Of a stretch of 64,000 bases of DNA, positions 1 to 64,000 are shown piece after piece. Every line of letters begins with the position of its first letter. Within the stretch, counting starts at the first letter, position 1. Origin of the DNA: Cardiobacteriaceae bacterium TAE3-ERU3 (GTDB lineage Bacteria > Pseudomonadota > Gammaproteobacteria > Cardiobacteriales > Cardiobacteriaceae); contig JAHUUI010000001.1 of NCBI GenBank assembly GCA_019218315.1, positions 231,722-295,721 of the forward strand, in the 5' to 3' direction. Under the pieces are notes generated by a model. The model searched no databases. It saw only the letters and a list, made by a program, of their open reading frames with translations, and was not told where the DNA came from. The translations under genes were made by a program, and so were the position numbers.

Positions 1-2460
1 ATCCTCAAAGTTATAACCATTCCACGGCATGAACGCGACGAGCATGTTTTGACCCAATGCCAGTTCACCAAGATCAGTTGAAGGACCATCAGCGAGTACG
101 TCACCACGCGCAACCACATCACCTGGATTAACCAATGGTTTTTGGTTGATACAGGTGTTTTGGTTCGAACGGGTGTACTTGGTCAGGTTGTAAATATCAA
201 CACCCAAACCACCAGCTTGAACTTCGTCATCGTTAACCTTAACCACGATACGCGATGAATCGACTGAATCAATCACACCGCCACGATCTGCGCGAACCAG
301 AACCCCAGAGTCACTGGCAACGGTACGCTCCATACCAGTACCGACCAACGGTTTATCTGCACGCAAGGTTGGCACTGCCTGACGTTGCATGTTCGAACCC
401 ATCAATGCACGGTTCGCATCATCGTGCTCAAGGAACGGGATCAAAGACGCTGCGACAGAAACGATCTGCTTAGGCGAGACGTCCATGTATTGGATACGGT
501 CAGGTGTTGAAAGCGCAAATTCGTTTTCAGCACGGGTTGAAATCAGCTCATCGACAAATTCACCTTTTTCATTCAGGTGTGCGTTTGCCTGTGCAATAAC
601 GTACTTAGATTCATCAATAGCTGACAAATACTCAATCTGATCGGTTACTTTGCCGTCGACAACCTTACGATAAGGGGTTTCGAGGAAACCGTACTCATTG
701 GTCTTGGCATAAACTGCCAAAGAGTTGATCAAACCGATGTTTGGTCCTTCCGGTGTCTCGATTGGGCACAAGCGACCGTAGTGAGTTGGGTGAACGTCTC
801 GAACTTCAAAACCAGCACGCTCACGGGTCAAGCCGCCCGGGCCAAGTGCAGAAATACGACGCTTGTGCGTGACTTCTGACAATGGGTTGTTCTGATCCAT
901 GAACTGCGAGAGCTGTGATGAACCAAAGAATTCTTTAATTGCTGCGGCTACCGGCTTGGCGTTGACCAAATCTTTCGGCGTCCAGCCCTCAGTCTCAGCT
1001 TGGGTCAAGCGCTCTTTGACGCTACGCTCAAGGCGTACCAAACCAATACGGAAGGCATTTTCAGCCATTTCGCCAACGCAACGGATACGGCGGTTACCGA
1101 GGTGGTCAATATCATCGACAGAGCCATCACCATCTTTGATGGCAATCAACGTTTTGATGACCTTGACGATGTCTTCTTTTGACAGCGTACCGCTGCCCTC
1201 TTCACTTGGAATACCCAAGCGACGGTTGAACTTCATGCGTCCAACACGGGACAAATCATAACGTTCTTCATTGAAGAATAGGTTGTCGAACAACAAGTCA
1301 GCTGCATCTTTAGTAGGTGGCTCACCTGGGCGCATCATGCGATAGATTTCAGCACGTGCGGTCAATTCACTGTCTGATTCATCACTGCGCAGGGTGTCAG
1401 CGATATATGCACCACGATCAAGTTCGTTGACGTAAAGCGTCTCGAATGATGTAACGCCAAGCTCGATCATGCGAACAATCAACTCTTCGGTCAATTCGCT
1501 GTTCGCCGCAAGGATCAATTCACCAGTGTCTTTATCAATCAGGTCCTTAGCAAGAATTTTGCCAATCAGGAAAGATTCAGGCACGGTCTGCTTGGTTACT
1601 TTTGCTTCTTCAAGCTTTTTCACGTGACGCGAAGTAATACGCTTACCCGCTTCAACCAAGACTTCTTTGTCAGCAACAATATCAAAAGCTGCAATTTCAC
1701 CGCGGAAATGCGATGGCTCAAATACCATTTCAATTTTACCGCTCTTGCCAATCTTGAATGTTTGCGTATCAAAGAACAGATCGAGAATTTCTTCGCTGTT
1801 GTAACCAAGCGCACGCAACAAAACTGTAACAGGCAACTTACGACGGCGGTCAATACGGCAATGGACCAAATCTTTGGCATCAAATTCGATATCCAGCCAT
1901 GAACCACGGTAAGGAATGACACGTGCATTGAACAACAGCTTGCCTGAGCTGTGGCTGCTGCCCTTGTCATGATCGAAAAAGACGCCTGGTGAACGGTGCA
2001 GCTGAGACACGATAACTCGTTCAGTACCGTTAATCACAAAGGTACCGTTATCAGTCATCAGCGGGATTTCACCCATATATACTGAATCAGATTCGATAAC
2101 TTGCTTGAGCTTTTTCTTGGCTGAGTTCTTATCGTAAATAGCCAAACGCATACGCGCACGCAAAGGAGCTGCAAACGTCACGCCGCGAAGCTGGCATTCA
2201 CGTGCATCAAATTCAGGTTTACCTAAATCATAGCCAACGTATTGCAACTCAACCATGCCATTGTGGCTAACAATCGGAAATATGGAAGAAAATGCTTCCT
2301 GTAAGCCCACTGGTTCGCGGGTCTCAGCGGTTTTATTCTGCTGGAGGAATGCGTGATAAGAGTCCAGCTGCATGGAAAGCAGATAAGGAGTTTCCAAGAC
2401 AGTTGGACGCTTGCTGAAATTCTTGCGAATACGTTTTTTATCGGTAAACGAATAGGTCAT
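1..2460 (-). CDS. rpoB: DNA-directed RNA polymerase subunit beta (5' part, cut by window edge)
   Basis: Beta subunit of RNA polymerase; 820 codons are present from the ATG at 2460 to the window edge. The reading frame is open throughout and begins [15 protein letters not shown]. The rifampicin region (about 830-920) reads as wild-type, with the segments [18 protein letters not shown] and [13 protein letters not shown]. The last residues are the conserved GYNFED segment near the active centre, so the flap and C-terminal clamp regions lie outside the window. It is the distal gene of the rplKAJL-rpoB unit and is separated from rplL by 244 bp containing strong RNA hairpins. rpoC is expected next, beyond the window. 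Confidence 0.98.
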
Positions 2461-2593
2461 AGTGACAGTAACCTCGAGCGTCAGATTAGCGCTTGCGCGC
2501 AGGATAGCTAAATGGACGGTGGTGTAATATCCATGCCGATAAACACGGCAACATATCAATGGGCATAAATATTACAAAGACGCGAAAAGGGCG

Positions 2594-2681
2594 CCCCGTA
2601 TATCGTTGTCTTGCCAATTCAAAGAATGGAAAGACACGAAACAACGGGGAACCCGTAGTCGCACTAGCAGTTAACTGCTAG
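2594..2681 (-). promoter_or_regulatory. rplL-rpoB intercistronic RNA hairpins
   Basis: The 244-bp gap between rplL and rpoB holds two foldable segments. At 2664-2681 there is an 18-nt perfect palindrome, CTAGCAGTTAACTGCTAG. At 2594-2649 a long hairpin pairs CCCCGT with ACGGGG and TGTCTT with AAGACA around an internal loop. In E. coli the equivalent spacer carries an attenuator and an RNase III processing site that set the beta subunit level relative to L7/L12. The same role is inferred here from position and structure only. Confidence 0.55.
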
Positions 2682-2704
2682 CTGCGAATTCAAATGACCA
2701 AAGA

Positions 2705-3082
2705 TCACTTGAGTTCGGCTTTTGCACCTGCTTCTTCGAGCTGTGCTTTCATCTTGTCGGCTTCTTCCTTCTCAACGCCTTCTTTCAGGGTTGAAGGAGC
2801 GCCGTCAACTGCTGCTTTGGCTTCCTTCAAGCCAAGGCCAGTGATCGCACGAACTGCTTTGATAACAGCTACTTTGTTTGCGCCAGCGTCAGTCAGCACG
2901 AGGTCAAACTCAGTTTGCTCAGCAGCTGCAGCACCAGCATCAGCGCCACCTGCAGGAGCAGCAGCAACAGCTGCAGCAGCAGTAACGCCGAATTTTTCTT
3001 CCATTGCCGAAATCAGGTCGACAACTTCCATCACAGTCATTTCAGAAATGGCATTTAAGATGTCTTCTTTTGCAATAGCCAT
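2705..3082 (-). CDS. rplL: 50S ribosomal protein L7/L12
   Basis: Ribosomal stalk protein that recruits translation factors. The 125-aa product starts [15 protein letters not shown], has the Ala/Gly-rich hinge ([21 protein letters not shown]) and the C-terminal factor-binding domain with [16 protein letters not shown] chose the ATG at 3082 because GGAG lies just upstream and it matches the family N-terminus; an in-frame start four codons earlier is possible but non-standard. It follows rplJ by 52 bp and is presumably co-transcribed with it under L10 leader control. Confidence 0.97.
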
Positions 3083-3134
3083 GTCAATCTCCATAAAAAT
3101 TAATTAGTAAACGGTTAAAAATACCAGACAGCGA

Positions 3135-3671
3135 TTAAGCTGCCTCTTTGCTTTGACGAACCGCATCAACTGTACGAACCAGTTTACCTGGAACTTCGTT
3201 GAGGGTACGCGCGAACTTGTCAAGCGGCGCACGCATGCAAGACATAAGCAACGCAATTGCTTCGTCCTTGGTCGGCAGTTTGGCCAGACGATCTAGCTCA
3301 CTACCTGGCATAACTTCACCAGAGACGCTCAAGAACTTGACAATACCTTTGTCAATCTTGTCGTTCTCTTTAAAGAAGTCACGCCACAAACGTGCAGCTG
3401 AACCTGGATCTTCTTGCGAAAATGCCAGAACCAACGGGCCTACGAGCTGGTCGGCAACATTGTCGAACTCAGTCTCAGCCAATGCACGCTTGGCCAGGGT
3501 ATTTTTAACCACACGCAGATATACACCGCCTTCACGAGCACGAGCATGCAGGTCGGTCATCTGTGCCACGGTCAAACCGTGGTATTCAGTGGCAACCAAA
3601 GCATACGCGCTAGAAGCCACTTGATTGACTTCTTCAACGACGGCTTTTTTGCTGGTCAAATTTTGTCCCAT
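3135..3671 (-). CDS. rplJ: 50S ribosomal protein L10
   Basis: L10 anchors the L7/L12 dimers to 23S rRNA at the base of the stalk. The 178-aa protein has the family N-terminus with VATEYHGLTVAQMTDLHARAR (split at the usual RNA-binding region) followed by VVKNTLAKRAL. The C-terminal helix is the L7/L12 docking segment. The L10-L7/L12 complex normally represses its own mRNA by binding the leader just upstream, and a recognisable leader is present here. Confidence 0.97.
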   Translation of the reverse strand: MGQNLTSKKAVVEEVNQVASSAYALVATEYHGLTVAQMTDLHARAREGGVYLRVVKNTLAKRALAETEFDNVADQLVGPLVLAFSQEDPGSAARLWRDFFKENDKIDKGIVKFLSVSGEVMPGSELDRLAKLPTKDEAIALLMSCMRAPLDKFARTLNEVPGKLVRTVDAVRQSKEAA

Positions 3672-55874: not shown

Positions 55875-56855
55875 ATGGCAGAAAAAAGCAAACACTATCA
55901 GGACGACGGCCTGCATTCTTCACTAAAAACCATCCTTCATTCCAAGCGCGCCAATATCTTCTACCTTGAGCACTGCCGCGTGATGCAAAAAGACGGGCGT
56001 GTGCTCTACCTCACCGAAGCCCGCGATGAAAACCAGTTCTGGAACATCCCCATCGCCAACACCACCTGCATCCTGCTCGGCACTGGCACATCCATCACCC
56101 AAGCAGCAATGCGCATGCTCGCTGCTGCTGGCGTATTGGTTGGCTTTTGCGGCGGCGGAGGCACGCCGTTACTGATGGCAAACGAAGTTGAATGGCTGAC
56201 CCCGCAAAGCGAATACCGTCCCACCGAATACTTGCAAGGCTGGCTAAGCTGGTGGTTCGACGACAGCGCCCGCCTGCGCGCCGCCAAAGCGTTTCAGCAA
56301 GTGCGCATCGATTACCTGCGCAAAGTATGGACGCGCAGCCGCGACCTGAACAGCTACGGCTTTAACGCCAATGATGATCCCATCCGCAGCCTGCTCGACC
56401 GCCAGCAGCAAGACATCGACACGCAAACCGATGTCAGCCACCTGCTGCAATGCGAAGCACGCCTGACCAAACAACTCTACAAACACGCTGCAACCTGCAC
56501 CGGACACAGCGGCTTCACCCGCGACCACGACGGCCTCGACCTCGCCAACGGCTTTCTCAACCACGGCAACTACCTCGCCTACGGCCTCGGCGCGACCACT
56601 GCATGGGTACTCGGCATCCCACACGGCTTCGCGGTCATGCACGGCAAAACACGGCGCGGCGCGCTGGTCTTCGATATCGCCGACCTGATTAAAGACGCAC
56701 TCATCCTGCCCTACGCCTTTATCTGCGCCAACGAAGGCGACGACGAACAAACCTTTCGCCAGCAATGCCTCAACGCCTTCACCGAACACAAAGCACTCGA
56801 CGTGATGTTCGATACCGTCAAAAGCTTGGCATTGGCTAACAAGGAAGCACCGTAA
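55875..56855 (+). CDS. cas1: type I-F CRISPR-associated endonuclease Cas1
   Basis: Integrase that inserts new spacers, in I-F acting with the Cas2 part of Cas2-3. The 326-aa product starts at the ATG at 55875 (MAEKSKHYQDDGLHSSLKTIL). It has SKRANIFYLEHCRVMQKDGRVLYL (split) and the catalytic region EARLTKQLYKHA, HGFAVMHGKTRRGALVFDIADLIKD (split), with the conserved Glu, His and Asp residues. Length matches I-F Cas1. Its TAA overlaps the cas2-3 ATG (TAATG). First gene of the cas operon. Confidence 0.96.
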   Translation: MAEKSKHYQDDGLHSSLKTILHSKRANIFYLEHCRVMQKDGRVLYLTEARDENQFWNIPIANTTCILLGTGTSITQAAMRMLAAAGVLVGFCGGGGTPLLMANEVEWLTPQSEYRPTEYLQGWLSWWFDDSARLRAAKAFQQVRIDYLRKVWTRSRDLNSYGFNANDDPIRSLLDRQQQDIDTQTDVSHLLQCEARLTKQLYKHAATCTGHSGFTRDHDGLDLANGFLNHGNYLAYGLGATTAWVLGIPHGFAVMHGKTRRGALVFDIADLIKDALILPYAFICANEGDDEQTFRQQCLNAFTEHKALDVMFDTVKSLALANKEAP

Positions 56856-59800
56856 TGCTCGTCACCCTCATCAGCCAGTGCGACAAACGCGCCATCAAAC
56901 GCAGCCAAAAAATCCTCGACGCCTTTGCCAACCGCATCGGCGACCGCACATGGCAAACCGTCATCACTGAAGACGGCCTCACCACCCTGCACAAACAACT
57001 GCGCCGCACCGCAACCAAAAACACCGCCGTATCCTGCCACCTGATGCGCAGCCGCTCGCGCACCGACTTGTTGTGGATTGTCGGCAAACGCGAACGCTTC
57101 AACCACGTAGGCCACGTCCCCGTCAACCGTACAACCCACAACCTCGCGCACCGTGAATGGGAAAATCAGTGGCAATACGCCGCCCTACTGCAAATCGTCA
57201 GTACCCTCGCCGCCCTGTTTCACGACATCGGCAAATGCAACGACGGCTTCCAAGCCAAATTACGCGGGCAAAGTACCCTGCGCGGCGACCCATACCGCCA
57301 CGAATGGCTGTCCTTGCACCTGTTTGCCATCCTCATTGACGGCTGCGACAGTGACACCGCATGGCTCAAGCGCTGCACCGAACCCGAACAACACATCACC
57401 CAAGGTGCATGGACACTTGACCCAACCAACCACATCAACATCGCCACATGGCCACCGCTGGCACAATGGATTGGCTGGCTGATTGTCTCGCACCATCGCC
57501 TGCCCGGCTACGAATACACCTTTGCCCGCGACAACAATGCACGGCAACAATATCGCCACGACCCGCAGCAACTCTTGCGCCAAACCCTGCGCGACTATTA
57601 TCAGGACATCCGCGCTGCCGATTATTGGGTACGCAACCCCAATAGCCTCGGCCAGCCCGAATCTGCCGACTTTTGGCGCGGCAGCCACAACATCATGGCC
57701 AGCCGCGTATGGCAAAAGACCTTACGCCGCTGGGCGCAAAAAGCCCTCGACCATCCAACCCTGCTCACCATGATGGACGACTTACAACAACAGCAGCGCA
57801 GCATGGCCGACCCGTGGCTACTCTACCTGTCGCGCTTGGCGCTGATGGTCGGCGACCACAATTATTCCAGCCTCGCCTACGACGACCCACGCTGCCAACG
57901 TTATCAACCCAAGCAACCCTTACCGCTCACCGCCAACACCCTACCCAAAGGCGTACCCGTCAACCTGCGCAATGCGCGCAGCAACATCCGCCAAAGCCTC
58001 GAAGAGCATCTACTCGGCGTCGCCGCAATGACCGCTGATTTTGCACGGCTTCTGCCCCAACTCGGCGATGACCTGCCGCGCCTCAGCCGCCACAAAGCAC
58101 TAAACAAACCCACCGCGCATCCGCGCTTCAAATGGCAAAACAAAGCCTATGAACTCGCACAGCAACACCAGCAAAGCAGTACCGCACACGGCTTTTTCGG
58201 CATCAACATGGCCTCGACCGGCTGCGGCAAAACCATCGCCAACGCACGCATCATGTACGGCCTCGCCGACCCCAGGCACGGCGCACGCTTTACCATTGCC
58301 CTCGGCCTGCGCGTCCTCACCCTGCAAACCGGCCAAAGCCTGCGCCACCAGCTCAAACTCAACGATGAAAGCCTCGCCATCCTCGTCGGCGGACAAGCGA
58401 ATACCGCCTTATTCCACATCGACCAAAATGAAAACCACAACGGCAGTGAATCCGCAGATGAACCGGTTGACGGCTGGGTAGACGGCGACATCCTCGACGG
58501 CAGCGTCCACAGCGAACGCCTCGGTACGATTATCGCCAGCGACAAAGCCCGCGAATTACTCTTTGCCCCAATCGTCACCTGCACCATCGACCACCTCATC
58601 CAAGCCAGCGAAAACCAGCGCGGCGGCCGCCACATCGCCCCGCTGCTGCGCCTGCTATCCAGCGACCTCATCCTCGACGAACCCGACGACTTCGACCAAA
58701 ACGACCTGCCCGCCCTTGCACACCTCATTCACCTCGCTGGCATCATGGGCAGCCGTATTTTACTGTCCTCGGCTACGATGACCCCAGACATGCTGCAAGG
58801 TCTGTTCGACGCATACCACAGCGGCCGCCAATACTGGAACAACAGCCAAGGGCTCGCCGCAGCACAGCCGGTTTGCGCGTGGTTCGACGAATACAGCTGC
58901 CGCGCCGAACATTGCAGCGACAACAGTGCCTTTGCCCAAGCACACCAGCAATTCAGCAGCCAACGCGCCTCCCGCCTAGACCAAGCGCCAGTGCGCCGTA
59001 TCGCCGATATCCTGCCCATCACCAAACCAACCAGCAAACGCACCAAAAAATACTACCAAACCCTCGCCACACAACTGCTAGACGGCATTACCCGCCTGCA
59101 CCACGACCACCATCAAACCAGTCCGGACGGCAAAACCGTCAGCATCGGCCTCATGCGCATGGCAAACATCCGCCCTCTAAACCAAGTCGCGCTCGCACTG
59201 CACGGCAATGGAGACCTGCTACCCGATGACACTGCCCTGCACCTTTGCGTCTATCACGGACGGCAAATCCTCATCCTGCGCAACGACCTCGAACGCACTC
59301 TCGACCGCCTGCTCACTCGCAACCCAAAGCATCCCGAAGCCCTGTTCAGCCATCCAGAAATCCGCGAACGCCTGCAAAGCAGCAACGCACAGCATCATAT
59401 CTTTGTCGTACTGGCCACTGCAGTCGCTGAGATTGGAAGGGATCACGATTATGACTGGGCGCTGGCTGAACCCTCGTCAATGCGTTCCATCATCCAGCTT
59501 GCTGGGCGTGTGTGGCGGCACCGACCAGACAAAACCACTACCAAACCCAACATCCTCATCTGGCAGCACAACCACAAAGGTCTGTTAAATGGCGATATCG
59601 TCTTCACCAAACCCGGCTTTGAAGACAGCGAACACCGCCTATCAACCCACGACCTCAACCAACTGCTGCGTGACAACGAAAAGCAGCACCTCAATGCCGT
59701 ACCACGCATTATTCATAGCAGCGATACCAGTACCGACACCTTGAGCAATCTCGAACACCGCGTCATGCACGACCTGCTCAATAATCCCGAACACAATTAC

Positions 59801-60211
59801 GTCAACGCATGGTGGCGTAATCTTGATAACGCACAACGCGCCCTGTGCCACCTACCTGCCATCAGCCCATTCCGCCACCAACACGGCAAAGATGAAGACT
59901 GGCTGATGATTCCCAATGACGAAAGTTTTGACGTTTATTCACGCGAGCAAGTCCTGGAAAATGGCTTGAGCGCCAGCGACACCCACAATCTCACCATTCA
60001 CGCTGAGCCCATACCTGAACACAATAGCCGCATACAACCGTGGCTAGTGCAAGATCTCAACGCCAGCCTTGACCGCCTGCAACCGCACTACCCCAACCTG
60101 TCGCGCACCGCGCTTGCCATACGCTTTGCCAGCGTCAGCTTGCCGCAAAAAGAAGGCGAATGGCTATTTCACCCGTGGCTGGGTTTTCACCACAGTAAAG
60201 ACGATAGGTAA
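56855..60211 (+). CDS. cas3: type I-F Cas2-Cas3 fusion helicase-nuclease
   Basis: The 1118-aa fusion typical of subtype I-F. Residues about 1-95 are Cas2-like (MLVTLISQCDKRAIKRSQKI). An HD nuclease follows, with ALFHDIGKCNDGFQAKL near residue 125 and VSHHRLPGYEY. The SF2 helicase has Walker A MASTGCGKTIANAR near residue 456, the DEPD box LILDEPDDFD near 607, LLSSATMTP and the arginine-finger motif QLAGRVWRHRP. It degrades targets recruited by the Csy complex and acts with Cas1 in adaptation. All key motifs look intact. Confidence 0.96.
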   Translation: MLVTLISQCDKRAIKRSQKILDAFANRIGDRTWQTVITEDGLTTLHKQLRRTATKNTAVSCHLMRSRSRTDLLWIVGKRERFNHVGHVPVNRTTHNLAHREWENQWQYAALLQIVSTLAALFHDIGKCNDGFQAKLRGQSTLRGDPYRHEWLSLHLFAILIDGCDSDTAWLKRCTEPEQHITQGAWTLDPTNHINIATWPPLAQWIGWLIVSHHRLPGYEYTFARDNNARQQYRHDPQQLLRQTLRDYYQDIRAADYWVRNPNSLGQPESADFWRGSHNIMASRVWQKTLRRWAQKALDHPTLLTMMDDLQQQQRSMADPWLLYLSRLALMVGDHNYSSLAYDDPRCQRYQPKQPLPLTANTLPKGVPVNLRNARSNIRQSLEEHLLGVAAMTADFARLLPQLGDDLPRLSRHKALNKPTAHPRFKWQNKAYELAQQHQQSSTAHGFFGINMASTGCGKTIANARIMYGLADPRHGARFTIALGLRVLTLQTGQSLRHQLKLNDESLAILVGGQANTALFHIDQNENHNGSESADEPVDGWVDGDILDGSVHSERLGTIIASDKARELLFAPIVTCTIDHLIQASENQRGGRHIAPLLRLLSSDLILDEPDDFDQNDLPALAHLIHLAGIMGSRILLSSATMTPDMLQGLFDAYHSGRQYWNNSQGLAAAQPVCAWFDEYSCRAEHCSDNSAFAQAHQQFSSQRASRLDQAPVRRIADILPITKPTSKRTKKYYQTLATQLLDGITRLHHDHHQTSPDGKTVSIGLMRMANIRPLNQVALALHGNGDLLPDDTALHLCVYHGRQILILRNDLERTLDRLLTRNPKHPEALFSHPEIRERLQSSNAQHHIFVVLATAVAEIGRDHDYDWALAEPSSMRSIIQLAGRVWRHRPDKTTTKPNILIWQHNHKGLLNGDIVFTKPGFEDSEHRLSTHDLNQLLRDNEKQHLNAVPRIIHSSDTSTDTLSNLEHRVMHDLLNNPEHNYVNAWWRNLDNAQRALCHLPAISPFRHQHGKDEDWLMIPNDESFDVYSREQVLENGLSASDTHNLTIHAEPIPEHNSRIQPWLVQDLNASLDRLQPHYPNLSRTALAIRFASVSLPQKEGEWLFHPWLGFHHSKDDR

Positions 60212-60217
60212 GTTGAA

Positions 60218-60293
60218 TTAAAAAGCCGCCTGTGCGGCGGCGAACAATCTACCTAGTGGCAGTATTTTCTAAGCCAGATATATCTGGAAAACG
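60218..60293 (-). ncRNA. degenerate I-F mini-CRISPR, candidate Cas-regulating guide RNA (CreR/CreA-like)
   Basis: On the minus strand, a repeat-like 28-mer (60266-60293) has a 5-bp stem CCAGA-TATA-TCTGG directly followed by CTTAGAAA, the standard I-F crRNA 5' handle. A 20-nt spacer follows (60246-60265, ATACTGCCACTAGGTAGATT). A second repeat-like 28-mer (60218-60245) begins GTTCGCCGCCGCACAGGCGGC. Its CCGCC/GGCGG stem matches I-F repeats with a compensated base pair. Cas6f cleavage after each stem would yield a 48-nt guide (8+20+20). The spacer pairs with the csy promoter (see 60372-60424). Only two repeat-like units exist, so this is not an ordinary array. Confidence 0.78.
60219..60241 (-). 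terminator. intrinsic terminator made from the second repeat-like unit
   Basis: Minus strand: GCCGCC-GCACA-GGCGGC hairpin followed by TTTTT then AA. The last eight bases of the repeat (CTTAGAAA in intact repeats) are changed to CTTTTTAA, turning the crRNA stem-loop into a Rho-independent terminator. Confidence 0.7.
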
Positions 60294-60294
60294 A

Positions 60295-60303
60295 ATTCTA
60301 GCA
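60295..60303 (-). promoter_or_regulatory. candidate extended -10 promoter of the guide RNA
   Basis: Minus strand: TGC-TAGAAT, an extended -10 element. Transcription would begin around 60288, at the stem of the first repeat-like unit, giving an RNA with almost no leader. No good -35 box is seen, as is common with extended -10 promoters. Confidence 0.45.
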
Positions 60304-60371
60304 TTCATTTTCTTTTGAGTTGGGTACTAGAATCACAAGATAGCTACAACTTCAATTAATATAAAAATTTC

Positions 60372-60424
60372 AATCTACCTAGAAGTAGTATGGAGTTGAC
60401 AAGCTAATTTTACTTATCTAGACT
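60372..60424 (+). promoter_or_regulatory. csy1 promoter overlapped by a partial protospacer for the guide RNA
   Basis: TTGACA (60396-60401), 17 bp, TAGACT (60419-60424) lie 30 bp before csy1. Immediately upstream, 60372-60391 (AATCTACCTAGAAGTAGTAT) matches the guide spacer at 17 of 20 positions. On the matching (minus) strand it is preceded by CC (60392-60393), the I-F PAM. From the PAM, positions 1-5 match, 6 mismatches, 7 matches, 8-9 mismatch, 10-20 match. A Csy complex bound here would abut the -35 box. Confidence 0.75.
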
Positions 60425-60453
60425 ACTCACATCCGCCACTATCGGAACAACTC

Positions 60454-61815
60454 ATGACAGACATCAACGCCGATACCTTCCGCCAAGCCGTCACTGCTTT
60501 CCTGCAAGCACAATTCGAGAAAAAATCCGACAAGCAACACAAAGCACTGGATAAAGCCCGCGAGGCTGGCGACAGCGCTGCAATTGCCAATCTTGAAGCT
60601 GAAATCGCCGATATCCGCGATAAATACGCCCGTGATAACTGGATGGATGAAGCTGCCAACCGCCTCGCCAAGCAACTTAATTTTGGCACGCATATATCCA
60701 AAGGTATTCATCCCGACGCCAAAGGGGACAACGTCACGTTCAGTAACCCACCCGACTTACCCGACACCCTGATTGGCTCACAAACCATCGGTGATTTAAT
60801 GCTCGATGCCAACGGCAATGCCGCTGCCCTGCCGCTCGCAGCCTTTTTCGATTGGCCGGTCACCGACAGCTTACACATCCGCGATGTCATCCAGCAGCAT
60901 CCCGAACTCGCCCAACCAGCGCTTGCCGCTGATCAGCAAACCGCAGCCGCCTACTTGCAAATTTTCCAAACCACGTTGTCTGGCGACATGACCGCCCCAC
61001 AAACCCACGAGCGCAACAAACAAATCCTGTGGCCGGTTGGCAGTCTCGACGAAGACGCTTACCACTGCCTCGTGCCGCTCTACCCGTCTGCACTTACCCA
61101 CCACGTCAAAAACACCCTCGACGACCTTCGCTGGAGCGACACCAACAAAACCGCACGTAGCAACCGCTACAAAGCCAACGCCGAACAGCAGCCCTATGTC
61201 ACCCTGGATAACCTCGCCGTACTGCAACTTGGAGGCGCCAAACCACAGAACATCAGCCAACTGATGAGCAAACAGGGCGGGCGTAATTACCTGCTGCCAT
61301 CCCTACCGCCAACCTATCATAGCGACGGTTATCCTGGTCTAACCCGCAACGGCACCACCTTATTTAACAAATCTCTGTATCGCCATTGTTCGCTACTATT
61401 TTGCGGCTTAAGCGAAGTAGTAAAAAACCCGCGCAATAATGTCGATGTGCGTGAATACCGTACCAAACTGGTTGAAAAACTCGTCCTGCGCGTCCTTGAT
61501 GTTGCCAAGCATCACCGCAACGACCATCCCGCCGGCTGGACACGCCAATTCGAGGAACTCGATGAAATGCAGGTCTTTTGGCTCGATCCGCACCGTGGCA
61601 CACTGGATGGCGAAAGTGACTACGAGAACCGCGACGAAGAAGACTGGCGAACCCCAATCAAAAAGGATTTTGCCGCATGGGCGGTTGCACGACTGCAAAC
61701 TCTGTGCAAAGAACAGGCACAGGATTTTGCCGATGCTGAAATCCGTTACTGGCGCAAATTCTTTATCGATGGTATCAACACATTGGCACGTCAAAATGAG
61801 GAGGTCTGGACATGA
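60454..61815 (+). CDS. cas8f: type I-F Csy complex large subunit Csy1 (Cas8f)
   Basis: Large subunit of the Csy surveillance complex, responsible with Cas5f for PAM reading and binding the crRNA 5' handle. The 453-aa protein begins MTDINADTFRQAVTAFLQAQ. It has an early Lys-rich helical region, NFGTHISKGIHPDAKGDN and the C-terminal QFEELDEMQVFWLDPHRG and EIRYWRKFFIDGIN, typical of Csy1. Preceded by its own promoter candidate and overlapping csy2 (ATGA). Confidence 0.94.
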   Translation: MTDINADTFRQAVTAFLQAQFEKKSDKQHKALDKAREAGDSAAIANLEAEIADIRDKYARDNWMDEAANRLAKQLNFGTHISKGIHPDAKGDNVTFSNPPDLPDTLIGSQTIGDLMLDANGNAAALPLAAFFDWPVTDSLHIRDVIQQHPELAQPALAADQQTAAAYLQIFQTTLSGDMTAPQTHERNKQILWPVGSLDEDAYHCLVPLYPSALTHHVKNTLDDLRWSDTNKTARSNRYKANAEQQPYVTLDNLAVLQLGGAKPQNISQLMSKQGGRNYLLPSLPPTYHSDGYPGLTRNGTTLFNKSLYRHCSLLFCGLSEVVKNPRNNVDVREYRTKLVEKLVLRVLDVAKHHRNDHPAGWTRQFEELDEMQVFWLDPHRGTLDGESDYENRDEEDWRTPIKKDFAAWAVARLQTLCKEQAQDFADAEIRYWRKFFIDGINTLARQNEEVWT

Positions 61816-62753
61816 AGCAACCACTACAAGGCTATTTGCTGCTCGACAGCATCCACATTACCTATGCCAACGCCGTATCCAGCCCCTTAACCTATGGTTT
61901 TCCTGCCATCACTGGATTTCTCGGTGCGATGCACGCACTAAACCGCAAAACCCGCCAACACCCGGCATTGGCAAATATCACTTTTGACGGCATCGCCGTG
62001 GCCTGCCATGAGCACCACATACTCACTAACCAACGCAGTCCCTACGCCGACCACACTTTCAACCAAACCCGTAACCCCATCCTCAAATCAGGCAAAACCG
62101 CCGCCATCGTCGAAGAAGGAAAATGCCACATCACCGTATCACTGGTGATTGCCATTGCCGCCGATAGCGACCCCGACGACCATACGCGTAATGAACTCAT
62201 CAACTGCGTACGCCAACGCCTGTGGCAACAGCGTATCGCTGGCGGCAGCATCACCAGCGACCCGCAGCAAACCCGTATCGAATACATTCCCGCAGCCAAA
62301 GCCGACACCATACCAGTCGAACTACTGCCCGCTTATCTACTCATGGACGCCGGTAATGACCTCGCCGACATCACCGCTGAATTGCGCAAAAAGCACCCAC
62401 AAACTACCCCGCTTGATGCCCTGATTGATGTTTGTACCCTGCACCACATCCCCGAAAGCAACGGTAAACATACTAAATGGCATGTACAAACCGCCAAGTC
62501 CGGACGCGGCTGGCTAGTACCAATTCCGATTGGCTATCAAGGTATCGCACCACTATTTGCCGCAGGCACACTTGGCAACGCCCGCAACCCCGACTACCCC
62601 GCGCAATATGTCGAAGCTATCTACACACTCGGCAAATGGCTGTTCCCCTACCGTCTGAAAGACAACGACATCAAAAATGCCCTGTGGCATTACCACTACG
62701 ACCGCGAAAACGACCGCTACCTCGCCACCCAAACACCCAACAAGGAGCATTAA
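61812..62753 (+). CDS. cas5f: type I-F Csy complex subunit Csy2 (Cas5f)
   Basis: The 313-aa protein starts MKQPLQGYLLLDSIHITYANA and has the Csy2 blocks YGFPAITGFLGAMHALNRK and GWLVPIPIGYQGIAPLFAAG. It forms the tail heterodimer with Csy1 and holds the crRNA 5' handle. Slightly shorter than some homologues. Overlaps csy1 by 4 bp; csy3 starts one base after its stop codon. Confidence 0.94.
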   Translation: MKQPLQGYLLLDSIHITYANAVSSPLTYGFPAITGFLGAMHALNRKTRQHPALANITFDGIAVACHEHHILTNQRSPYADHTFNQTRNPILKSGKTAAIVEEGKCHITVSLVIAIAADSDPDDHTRNELINCVRQRLWQQRIAGGSITSDPQQTRIEYIPAAKADTIPVELLPAYLLMDAGNDLADITAELRKKHPQTTPLDALIDVCTLHHIPESNGKHTKWHVQTAKSGRGWLVPIPIGYQGIAPLFAAGTLGNARNPDYPAQYVEAIYTLGKWLFPYRLKDNDIKNALWHYHYDRENDRYLATQTPNKEH

Positions 62754-62754
62754 C

Positions 62755-63747
62755 ATGACCCTCAAAACCGCATCCGTACTCGCCTTTGAAAAAAACCTCG
62801 ACTGCTCGGACGGCTTCTTCTGGCAATACGACAGTGCTAAGCAAGACCAGCCTGCAACACCGGTTGGCATCAGCGAAAAATCCGTACGCGGCACCATCAG
62901 CAATCGCCTCAAAAACGCCATTGCCAACGATCCGCTAAAACTCGACGCTGAAATCCAGAAGCCCAACCTGCAAACCATCGACAACGCAGCACTCGATGAG
63001 GACAAAGATACCCTATTGGTCAAATGGAGCTGCAAAGTCCTGCCCTTTAGCGGTCAGCCCTGCGCCTGCAATAATCAGGACTACCAAACAGCTCTGATGG
63101 AGCAAGTACAAAGCTACATCGACGAACACGGCTTTGCCGAACTCGCCAAACGCTATGCTATCAACATCGCCAATGCCCGTTGGATGTGGCGCAACCGCGT
63201 CGGCGCCGAGCACGTCGAAGTCCGTGTACGCTGCGGGAAAGAAGAACTCATCTTCAAAGATGGAAAACAATACAACATCCAGCACTTCGACCACAGCGAC
63301 ACACAACTCACCCCCCTTGCGCAGTGGATTGCCGATGGTCTCGCCGACAAACAATTCACCATCCTCTATATCGAAGCGCACGCCAAAGTCGGTTACGGAC
63401 AGCAAGTCTTCCCCTCACAAGAACTCGTCCTCGACACCGGCAACCGCAAAAGCAAAGTCCTCTACCAAATCGACGGTAAAGCTGGCATGCACGCACAAAA
63501 AATCGGCAACGCCCTGCGCACCATCGACACTTGGTATCCCGATGCTGAATACCCAATTGCCGTCGAACCCTATGGCGCAGTCACCAGCATGGGGCAAGCC
63601 TTCCGCCAGCCCAAAGCCAAGCAGGATTTTTACAGCCTGTTCGACAAATGGATCACCAAAGGCGAAAAGCCCGGTGTCGAGCAGCAGCACTACGTCATCG
63701 CCGTACTTATCCGCGGCGGTGTCTTTGGTGAAAGTGGGAAAGAATAA
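62755..63747 (+). CDS. cas7f: type I-F Csy complex backbone subunit Csy3 (Cas7f)
   Basis: The 330-aa backbone subunit polymerises along the crRNA spacer, one per 6 nt. The start is the ATG at 62755 (MTLKTASVLAFEKNLDCSDGF) with AAGGAG upstream. It has the Csy3 segments VGISEKSVRGTISNRLKNA and ANARWMWRNRVGAEHVEVRV, and AVTSMGQAFRQP near the end. Its TAA overlaps the csy4 ATG (TAATG). Confidence 0.95.
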   Translation: MTLKTASVLAFEKNLDCSDGFFWQYDSAKQDQPATPVGISEKSVRGTISNRLKNAIANDPLKLDAEIQKPNLQTIDNAALDEDKDTLLVKWSCKVLPFSGQPCACNNQDYQTALMEQVQSYIDEHGFAELAKRYAINIANARWMWRNRVGAEHVEVRVRCGKEELIFKDGKQYNIQHFDHSDTQLTPLAQWIADGLADKQFTILYIEAHAKVGYGQQVFPSQELVLDTGNRKSKVLYQIDGKAGMHAQKIGNALRTIDTWYPDAEYPIAVEPYGAVTSMGQAFRQPKAKQDFYSLFDKWITKGEKPGVEQQHYVIAVLIRGGVFGESGKE

Positions 63748-64000
63748 TGCGCGCCTATCAAGAACTCACCATTATTCCCGGTGACGACATCAATCCCTAT
63801 TTCATCTGGGGCAAACTATACATGCAACTGCACCTCGCACTCGTCGAGGTGCAGAATCCCGACGGACGGGTCAACATCGGCGTCAGTTTCCCCAAATACC
63901 GCTACCAACCCGACAGCGACAAACCCATAGCCACCCTCGGCAACCAACTGCGTATCTTTGCCCCTGACCGTGCACAACTTGAAACCCTGAACCTGAACAA
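63747..64000 (+). CDS. cas6f: type I-F crRNA-processing endonuclease Csy4 (Cas6f), cut by window edge
   Basis: Cleaves pre-crRNA at the base of the repeat hairpin. The first 84 codons are present: MRAYQELTIIPGDDINPYFIWG, then KLYMQLHLALVEV and NIGVSFPKYRY. The His in MQLHLAL is residue 29, the position of the catalytic His in Pseudomonas Csy4. The C-terminal RNA-binding part lies beyond the window, where a CRISPR array would also be expected. Confidence 0.92.
   Translation, partial: MRAYQELTIIPGDDINPYFIWGKLYMQLHLALVEVQNPDGRVNIGVSFPKYRYQPDSDKPIATLGNQLRIFAPDRAQLETLNLN

Follow-up and report, generated by a model that had tools for sequence, protein, structure and literature searches.

A degenerate CRISPR repeat with the anatomy of a transcription terminator in a candidate cas-regulating guide gene of a type I-F locus

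Can a single CRISPR repeat stop transcription of a guide RNA gene and, at the same time, provide the guide with its Cas6f-bound 3' stem? This question is raised by a type I-F locus lying at the end of a 64,000-nt stretch of DNA (hereafter the window) and comprising cas1, cas2-3, csy1, csy2, csy3 and a cas6f gene that crosses the window end and is intact in the window's genome. The initial annotation had noted a repeat-like hairpin next to cas2-3 and proposed this dual use for it. Here we examine the hairpin, its genetic context and its recurrence among csy1 loci.

Organization of the mini-CRISPR

The interval between the cas2-3 stop codon (60209-60211) and the csy1 ATG (60454) spans 242 bases and carries a mini-CRISPR on the minus strand. 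In the direction of transcription, an extended -10 motif is followed by a first repeat-like unit (PsiR1), a spacer (PsiS) and a second repeat-like unit (PsiR2). Features of the region are as follows.

60218-60245, minus strand: PsiR2, second of the two repeat-like units, sharing 24/28 bases with the array repeat; its handle is now CTTTTTAA
60225-60241, minus strand: PsiR2 stem-loop GCCGCC-GCACA-GGCGGC, with a 6-bp all-GC stem and a 5-nt loop; presumed Cas6f-bound 3' stem
60220-60224, minus strand: T5 tract, directly 3' of the PsiR2 stem
60246-60265, minus strand: PsiS, 20-nt spacer ATACTGCCACTAGGTAGATT
60266-60293, minus strand: PsiR1, diverged repeat with hairpin CCAGA-TATA-TCTGG; handle CTTAGAAA intact at 60266-60273
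60295-60303, minus strand: predicted extended -10 TGCTAGAAT for the mini-CRISPR, with transcription expected to begin at PsiR1
60372-60391, minus strand: PsiS target, 17/20 match, mismatches at positions 6, 8 and 9
60392-60393, minus strand: 5'-CC sequence, PAM of the target
60396-60424, plus strand: predicted csy1 promoter TTGACA-17-TAGACT (10/12), adjoining the PAM
56855-60211, plus strand: cas2-3 (Cas3f), convergent with the mini-CRISPR
60454-61815, plus strand: csy1 (cas8f), opening gene of the operon presumed to be regulated
61812-62753, plus strand: csy2 (cas5f)
62677-63747, plus strand: csy3 (cas7f), longest ORF; the real start is possibly further in
63747-64000, plus strand: cas6f (csy4), truncated by the window end; whole in L009, 469-1119

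An Rfam scan of the window returned nothing at gathering score except tRNAs, and a search of the genome contigs found no close protein relatives. Among the stretches of the genome that were read, two I-F arrays with different repeats lie beyond the window. The one next to cas6f (L009, about 1477-3246) has a CCACC/GGTGG stem, and the other, some 25 kb further out (L010, about 1054-2761), has a CCGCC/GGCGG stem; the mini-CRISPR resembles the distant array.

PsiR2 combines a GC-rich stem with a T-run

On the minus strand, PsiR2 (60218-60245) reads GTTCGCCGCCGCACAGGCGGCTTTTTAA. The closest repeat is that of the second array of the genome, GTTCACCGCCGCACAGGCGGCTTAGAAA, about 25 kb past the window, which is identical at 24 of 28 positions. 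The four differences consist of an A5G change and the conversion of AGA to TTT in the handle. As the initial annotation had recognized, the latter turns CTTAGAAA into CTTTTTAA and places five T residues (60220-60224) at the foot of the GCCGCC/GGCGGC stem. The A5G change, absent from that account, adds a sixth G-C pair to the stem. Judged from the sequence, all four changes are predicted to favour termination. The calculated folding energy is -10.1 kcal/mol for the array repeat and -13.8 kcal/mol for PsiR2. Under a terminator formula of the d'Aubenton-Carafa type, PsiR2 scores +42.2, the third highest value among the 41 elements of the survey described below; the 59 array units of the genome range from -35.9 to -15.2, and PsiR1 stands at -46.6.

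Of roughly 200,000 random copies of the array repeat with four substitutions each, 16 acquired T5 and kept the adjoining stem intact. T5 starts at approximately 1% (8/840) of downstream sites in comparable elements outside the family designated f275 (see below), so the T-run alone is roughly a 1-in-100 event. Scanning positions 60150-60500 for terminator-like structures yielded two overlapping versions of the PsiR2 hairpin (0.3 expected), on the minus strand only. Lower-quality patterns occur frequently over a broader region (30, against 18 expected), and a bare pattern match therefore proves little. Like an intrinsic (Rho-independent) terminator, PsiR2 has a GC-rich stem with a T-run directly 3' of it; unlike an ordinary one, it appears to derive from a CRISPR repeat and would be expected to bind Cas6f. 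No other notable hairpin is present in the 55 nt past PsiR2 (z -1.29).

Eight bases (60212-60219) separate the TAA of cas2-3 from the T-run, in agreement with the 8-bp distance originally reported. It had also been suggested that the hairpin affects cas2-3 mRNA ends on the plus strand. We dropped the idea of a plus-strand terminator for cas2-3: the hairpin has no T-run on that strand and the scan finds no terminator there, so that an effect on mRNA ends as an intrinsic terminator is unsupported.

The spacer matches a site adjoining the predicted csy1 promoter

PsiS matches the minus-strand sequence between 60372 and 60391 at 17 of 20 bases, with CC just before. Across 20,000 shuffled versions of the gap, the best CC-PAM match was 14, and the best CC-PAM site in the rest of the 64-kb window likewise reaches 14. 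Two bases separate the PAM from the -35 element of TTGACA-17-TAGACT. Over the final 14 kb of the window, this candidate csy1 promoter ranks in the top two promoter-like sites, and the cas2-3/csy1 gap has no other; the csy1 ATG is 29 bases past the predicted -10. A five-codon ORF on the plus strand (60390-60407, ATG at 60390) overlaps the csy1 -35 and is probably due to chance.

The unit shows three traits of CreR elements: two degenerate CRISPR repeats around one spacer-like sequence near cas genes, a partial match at a PAM-flanked site and a target in a cas promoter, here a predicted one. With I-F CreTA it shares a mini-CRISPR in the cas3-csy1 gap with a CC-PAM target. It does not correspond to a one-PsiR creA, PsiR2 being kept (24/28 relative to the repeat). 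We read the unit as a putative CreR, a Cas-regulating guide closely related to I-F CreA, that would repress csy1-csy2-csy3-cas6f; the likely role of the guide, on which the initial annotation of this hairpin was silent, is to repress the csy1 promoter.

Similar elements recur upstream of csy1

To define a sample, 94 csy1 loci, including that of the window, were collected from Csy1 protein and family searches, leaving out duplicates, csy1 fragments without a given locus and L166, which holds the second part of a csy1 split in two. Elements were accepted if they had a PsiR1 hairpin with handle and a PsiR2 stem separated by a 12-42 nt spacer, and if a CC-PAM target upstream of csy1 agreed with the guide (first 20 bases) at positions 1-5 or more and at no less than 60% of its bases. 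Such elements were present at 41 of the 94 loci, and in none of 470 shuffled regions and none of 93 csy1-internal regions.

Positions 1-5 of the guide match by construction, due to the acceptance rule, the remaining positions being free. Mismatches peak at positions 6 (26/41), 12 (29/41) and 18 (20/37), with only 13 in the 205 cells of positions 7-11; positions 19 and 20 are often mismatched too (19/37 and 17/34, respectively). In type I effectors, every sixth base of the guide is flipped out. The periodicity is the pattern expected for guides read in a type I (Csy) effector. In 32 of 41 elements a good -10 is located 22 nt or less from the PsiR1 stem, against 25% of shuffled upstream stretches, and in 27 of 41 the target overlaps, or is at most 12 nt from, a csy1-facing promoter-like site (5.9 expected).

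In many minus-strand elements from different families, the csy1-facing -35 starts about 22-25 nt from the far end of the target, which means that the PAM abuts the -35 in those elements. L167 carries, upstream of csy1, a tandem-duplicated mini-CRISPR with three repeat units and two identical 20-nt spacers. In L134 and L135, both of the f275 family, an ORF of about 107 aa is found between the targeted site and csy1; L131 reads similarly. This f275 ORF has no NCBIfam match and a single Pfam match, below threshold (PhyR sigma-like). Its product might be a regulator or, in the manner of CreP, a protein that the guide represses.

The apparent merger of repeat and terminator is found in a second family

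T5 or a longer run directly follows the PsiR2 stem in 10 of the 41 elements: that of the window and 9 of the 17 f275 members, where the background for T5 is about 1.7% per site. The terminator score is above zero in 14 of 41 elements (the window and 13 of 17 in f275) and below zero in the other 27, of which 23 are outside f275. The f275 genomes with a readable array have the handle TTTAGAAA, indicating that positions 4 and 5 (A, G) became T in f275, as in the window. For comparison, 15 f275 rows were chosen, two of them without a validated target, leaving out the type represented by L137, L161, L162 and L164. T residues occupy position 4 in 13 rows and position 5 in 11. Pairwise identity is 83% for bases 1-5 after the stem, part of which is accounted for by the native TTT, compared to 46% for the spacers and 38% for bases 9-36. 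On this comparison, the T-run appears to be kept in f275 while spacer and downstream sequences vary; that is, the merger is apparently conserved there.

Fused and non-fused elements were also compared further downstream. A strong hairpin (z below -2) is present in the next 55 nt in none of the 10 fused elements, versus 14 of 31 non-fused ones, many of which show an evident separate hairpin. Under a stricter terminator rule, separate terminators number 0/10 and 6/31, respectively, a difference that is not clear. This contrast is suggestive only, since 9 of the 10 fused elements share f275 ancestry.

Outside f275, the window has the sole fused element of 24, a number that fits the background T5 rate (binomial p 0.2). 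In a genome of the same genus (G001) the gap is short and holds no element, and other elements from the window's order (L020, L022 and L023) are not merged by score. The case for a merger in the window thus rests on two agreeing changes and on the f275 parallel, not on conservation in its own lineage. Five elements with CC-PAM targets and T4-T5 runs (L089, L093, L094, L102 and L104) were considered as further mergers. They came from a pattern search biased towards T4, and their negative terminator scores (-2.4 to -13.3) led us not to count them as clear cases. The dual use originally proposed is thus supported in part: based on sequence, comparison and the parallel in another family, PsiR2, the closing repeat of a guide gene with a single spacer, is at the same time a terminator-like hairpin. 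Arrest of transcription and Cas6f binding at this hairpin are carried into the model below as predictions.

A model for the guide gene and its alternatives

Starting from the repeats, spacer, target, PAM, terminator anatomy and recurrence read in the DNA, we propose how the guide might be transcribed, terminated, bound by Cas6f and used in repression. The one-spacer mini-CRISPR between cas2-3 and csy1 would produce a crRNA-like RNA of the CreR/CreA type, starting at PsiR1 and ending in the T-run of PsiR2, where hairpin and T5 would act as an intrinsic terminator. Cas6f would cut at PsiR1, generating the CUUAGAAA handle, and would be retained on the PsiR2 stem, the 3' end of the guide. A second cut would be unnecessary because the RNA would already end at the stem held by Cas6f. 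A Csy complex with the 20-nt guide could then bind the mismatched CC-PAM site by the -35 and repress csy1-csy2-csy3-cas6f, so as to place the Csy genes under feedback control. Being 8 bp from the cas2-3 stop, the terminator would keep the RNA from running antisense into cas2-3. The merged unit would keep the handle and end the RNA some 8-13 nt before the stop, a distance at which a separate terminator would only fit inside the cas2-3 gene. We give the whole model (CreR/CreA-type guide, PsiR2 as terminator and Cas6f-held 3' stem, csy1 feedback repression) a probability of about 70%. Two further points count against it, besides the comparative results given above: the PsiR2 handle, outside the mature RNA, may drift freely, and the G5-C21 pair gained in PsiR2 could interfere with its cleavage or binding by Cas6f. 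The hairpin could also be a Cas6f-sensing switch, with Cas6f on nascent PsiR2 altering the stopping of polymerase. We hold this extension to be a long shot; if true, guide output and antisense read-through into cas2-3 would depend on free Cas6f, forming a second feedback loop besides promoter repression.

Alternatively, the guide gene may be real and the T5 a product of drift, an unconstrained last handle having gained T's while transcription ends elsewhere. The many different degenerate handles of non-fused PsiR2 units are in line with this reading, as is the single fused element among the 24 outside f275, a frequency compatible with the background (p 0.2). However, the A5G and handle changes both strengthen the terminator, and stem retention with T5 gain was seen in 16 of the roughly 200,000 random four-change copies; moreover, the following 55 nt offer no notable hairpin in its place (z -1.29), and the merger is conserved in f275. 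We consider drift unlikely, while granting it some weight. The functionless remnant of a decayed array is also conceivable given how highly diverged PsiR1 is, but it would hardly come with a spacer that pairs at 17/20 bases with a PAM-flanked site adjoining the csy1 promoter, an intact PsiR1 handle with an adjoining -10 and the 6/12/18 mismatch periodicity seen across survey elements; we regard it as very improbable.

The repressed promoter might instead drive a small toxin gene, creT, and not, or not only, csy1, making the unit a CreTA antitoxin. The Acinetobacter I-F creTA occupies the same cas3-csy1 gap and has a 20-nt PsiS with 17 paired bases (PMC10097628), and the five-codon ORF at 60390 overlaps the csy1 -35. 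On the other hand, the best promoter (60396-60424) leaves about 20-30 nt to the csy1 ATG, thus no room for a toxin gene, and the five-codon ORF is upstream of the transcription start of that promoter. We consider the antitoxin reading improbable and favour csy1 repression by a self-terminating guide.

Relation to known guide genes

The closest published relative is the I-F CreTA of Acinetobacter WCHA45, a mini-CRISPR in the cas3-csy1 gap (PMC10097628). As described there, it shares with the window's element the position in the gap, two degenerate repeats, a 20-nt PsiS, divergent orientation relative to csy1, 17/20 pairing, the mismatch at position 6 and the CC PAM. In WCHA45 the target controls a toxin RNA, whereas in the window it abuts the csy1 promoter; the main text of that paper does not contain the word "terminator", and we found no merged repeat-terminator described there. 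CreR RNAs are crRNA-like guides that partially match cas promoters and exert feedback on cas genes (PMC12737573, PMC13131331, PMC12948488). The window's element shares the crRNA-like guide and the partial cas-promoter match with these, and in our model feedback would follow as it does for CreR (PMC12737573); the CreR types treated in the text of PMC13131331 are I-B, I-E and V-A, whereas this is a I-F element with PsiR2 as putative terminator.

The one-PsiR creA of Haloarcula hispanica and H. marismortui creA likewise have a terminator that evolved at their 3' ends (PMC8501985). In Haloarcula, PsiR2 is lost, or termination at the start of PsiR2 drops the 3' handle, whereas in the window PsiR2 itself would be the terminator, with its 3' stem kept. 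According to the same source, the 3' handle raises guide abundance and a terminator in place of PsiR2 lowers it; the creA terminators in its text follow PsiR2 or replace it (PMC8501985). In II-C arrays, as presented in PMC12080349, upstream terminators and mutated extra repeats are two separate strategies. Our searches of open-licence papers brought up no repeat that had become a terminator while remaining the 3' stem. We conclude that the guide gene is of a known type and that, within this literature, the merged repeat-terminator is new.

If the model is correct, the locus would represent a minimal guide-RNA gene, compressed to a promoter, a cut site, a spacer and one hairpin as would-be terminator and Cas-protein handle. 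I-F repeats seem pre-adapted for such a merger, since the CTTAG or TTTAG following the stem is two changes from a T-run. Elements of this kind provide a simple test of how selection reshapes repeats in CRISPR-derived regulators and, for single guides that terminate themselves, a design that evolved in nature. Taken together, the loci surveyed yield many candidate I-F cas-regulating guides of uniform geometry.

Terminator-like repeats at array ends

As a general rule for array ends, the repeat-terminator was rejected: a T4 or longer run accompanies the last repeat in 1 of 28 arrays, many of them cut by the stretch end. In viral contigs, the T4-biased pattern search gave one stretch, L179, which looks like an ordinary array end. 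The array-end repeat of L099 has a terminator score of +0.3. CT6 to CT7 comes directly after the last I-F array repeat in Selenomonas ruminantium MAGs (L092, L107 and L110), where the scores are +10 to +13.
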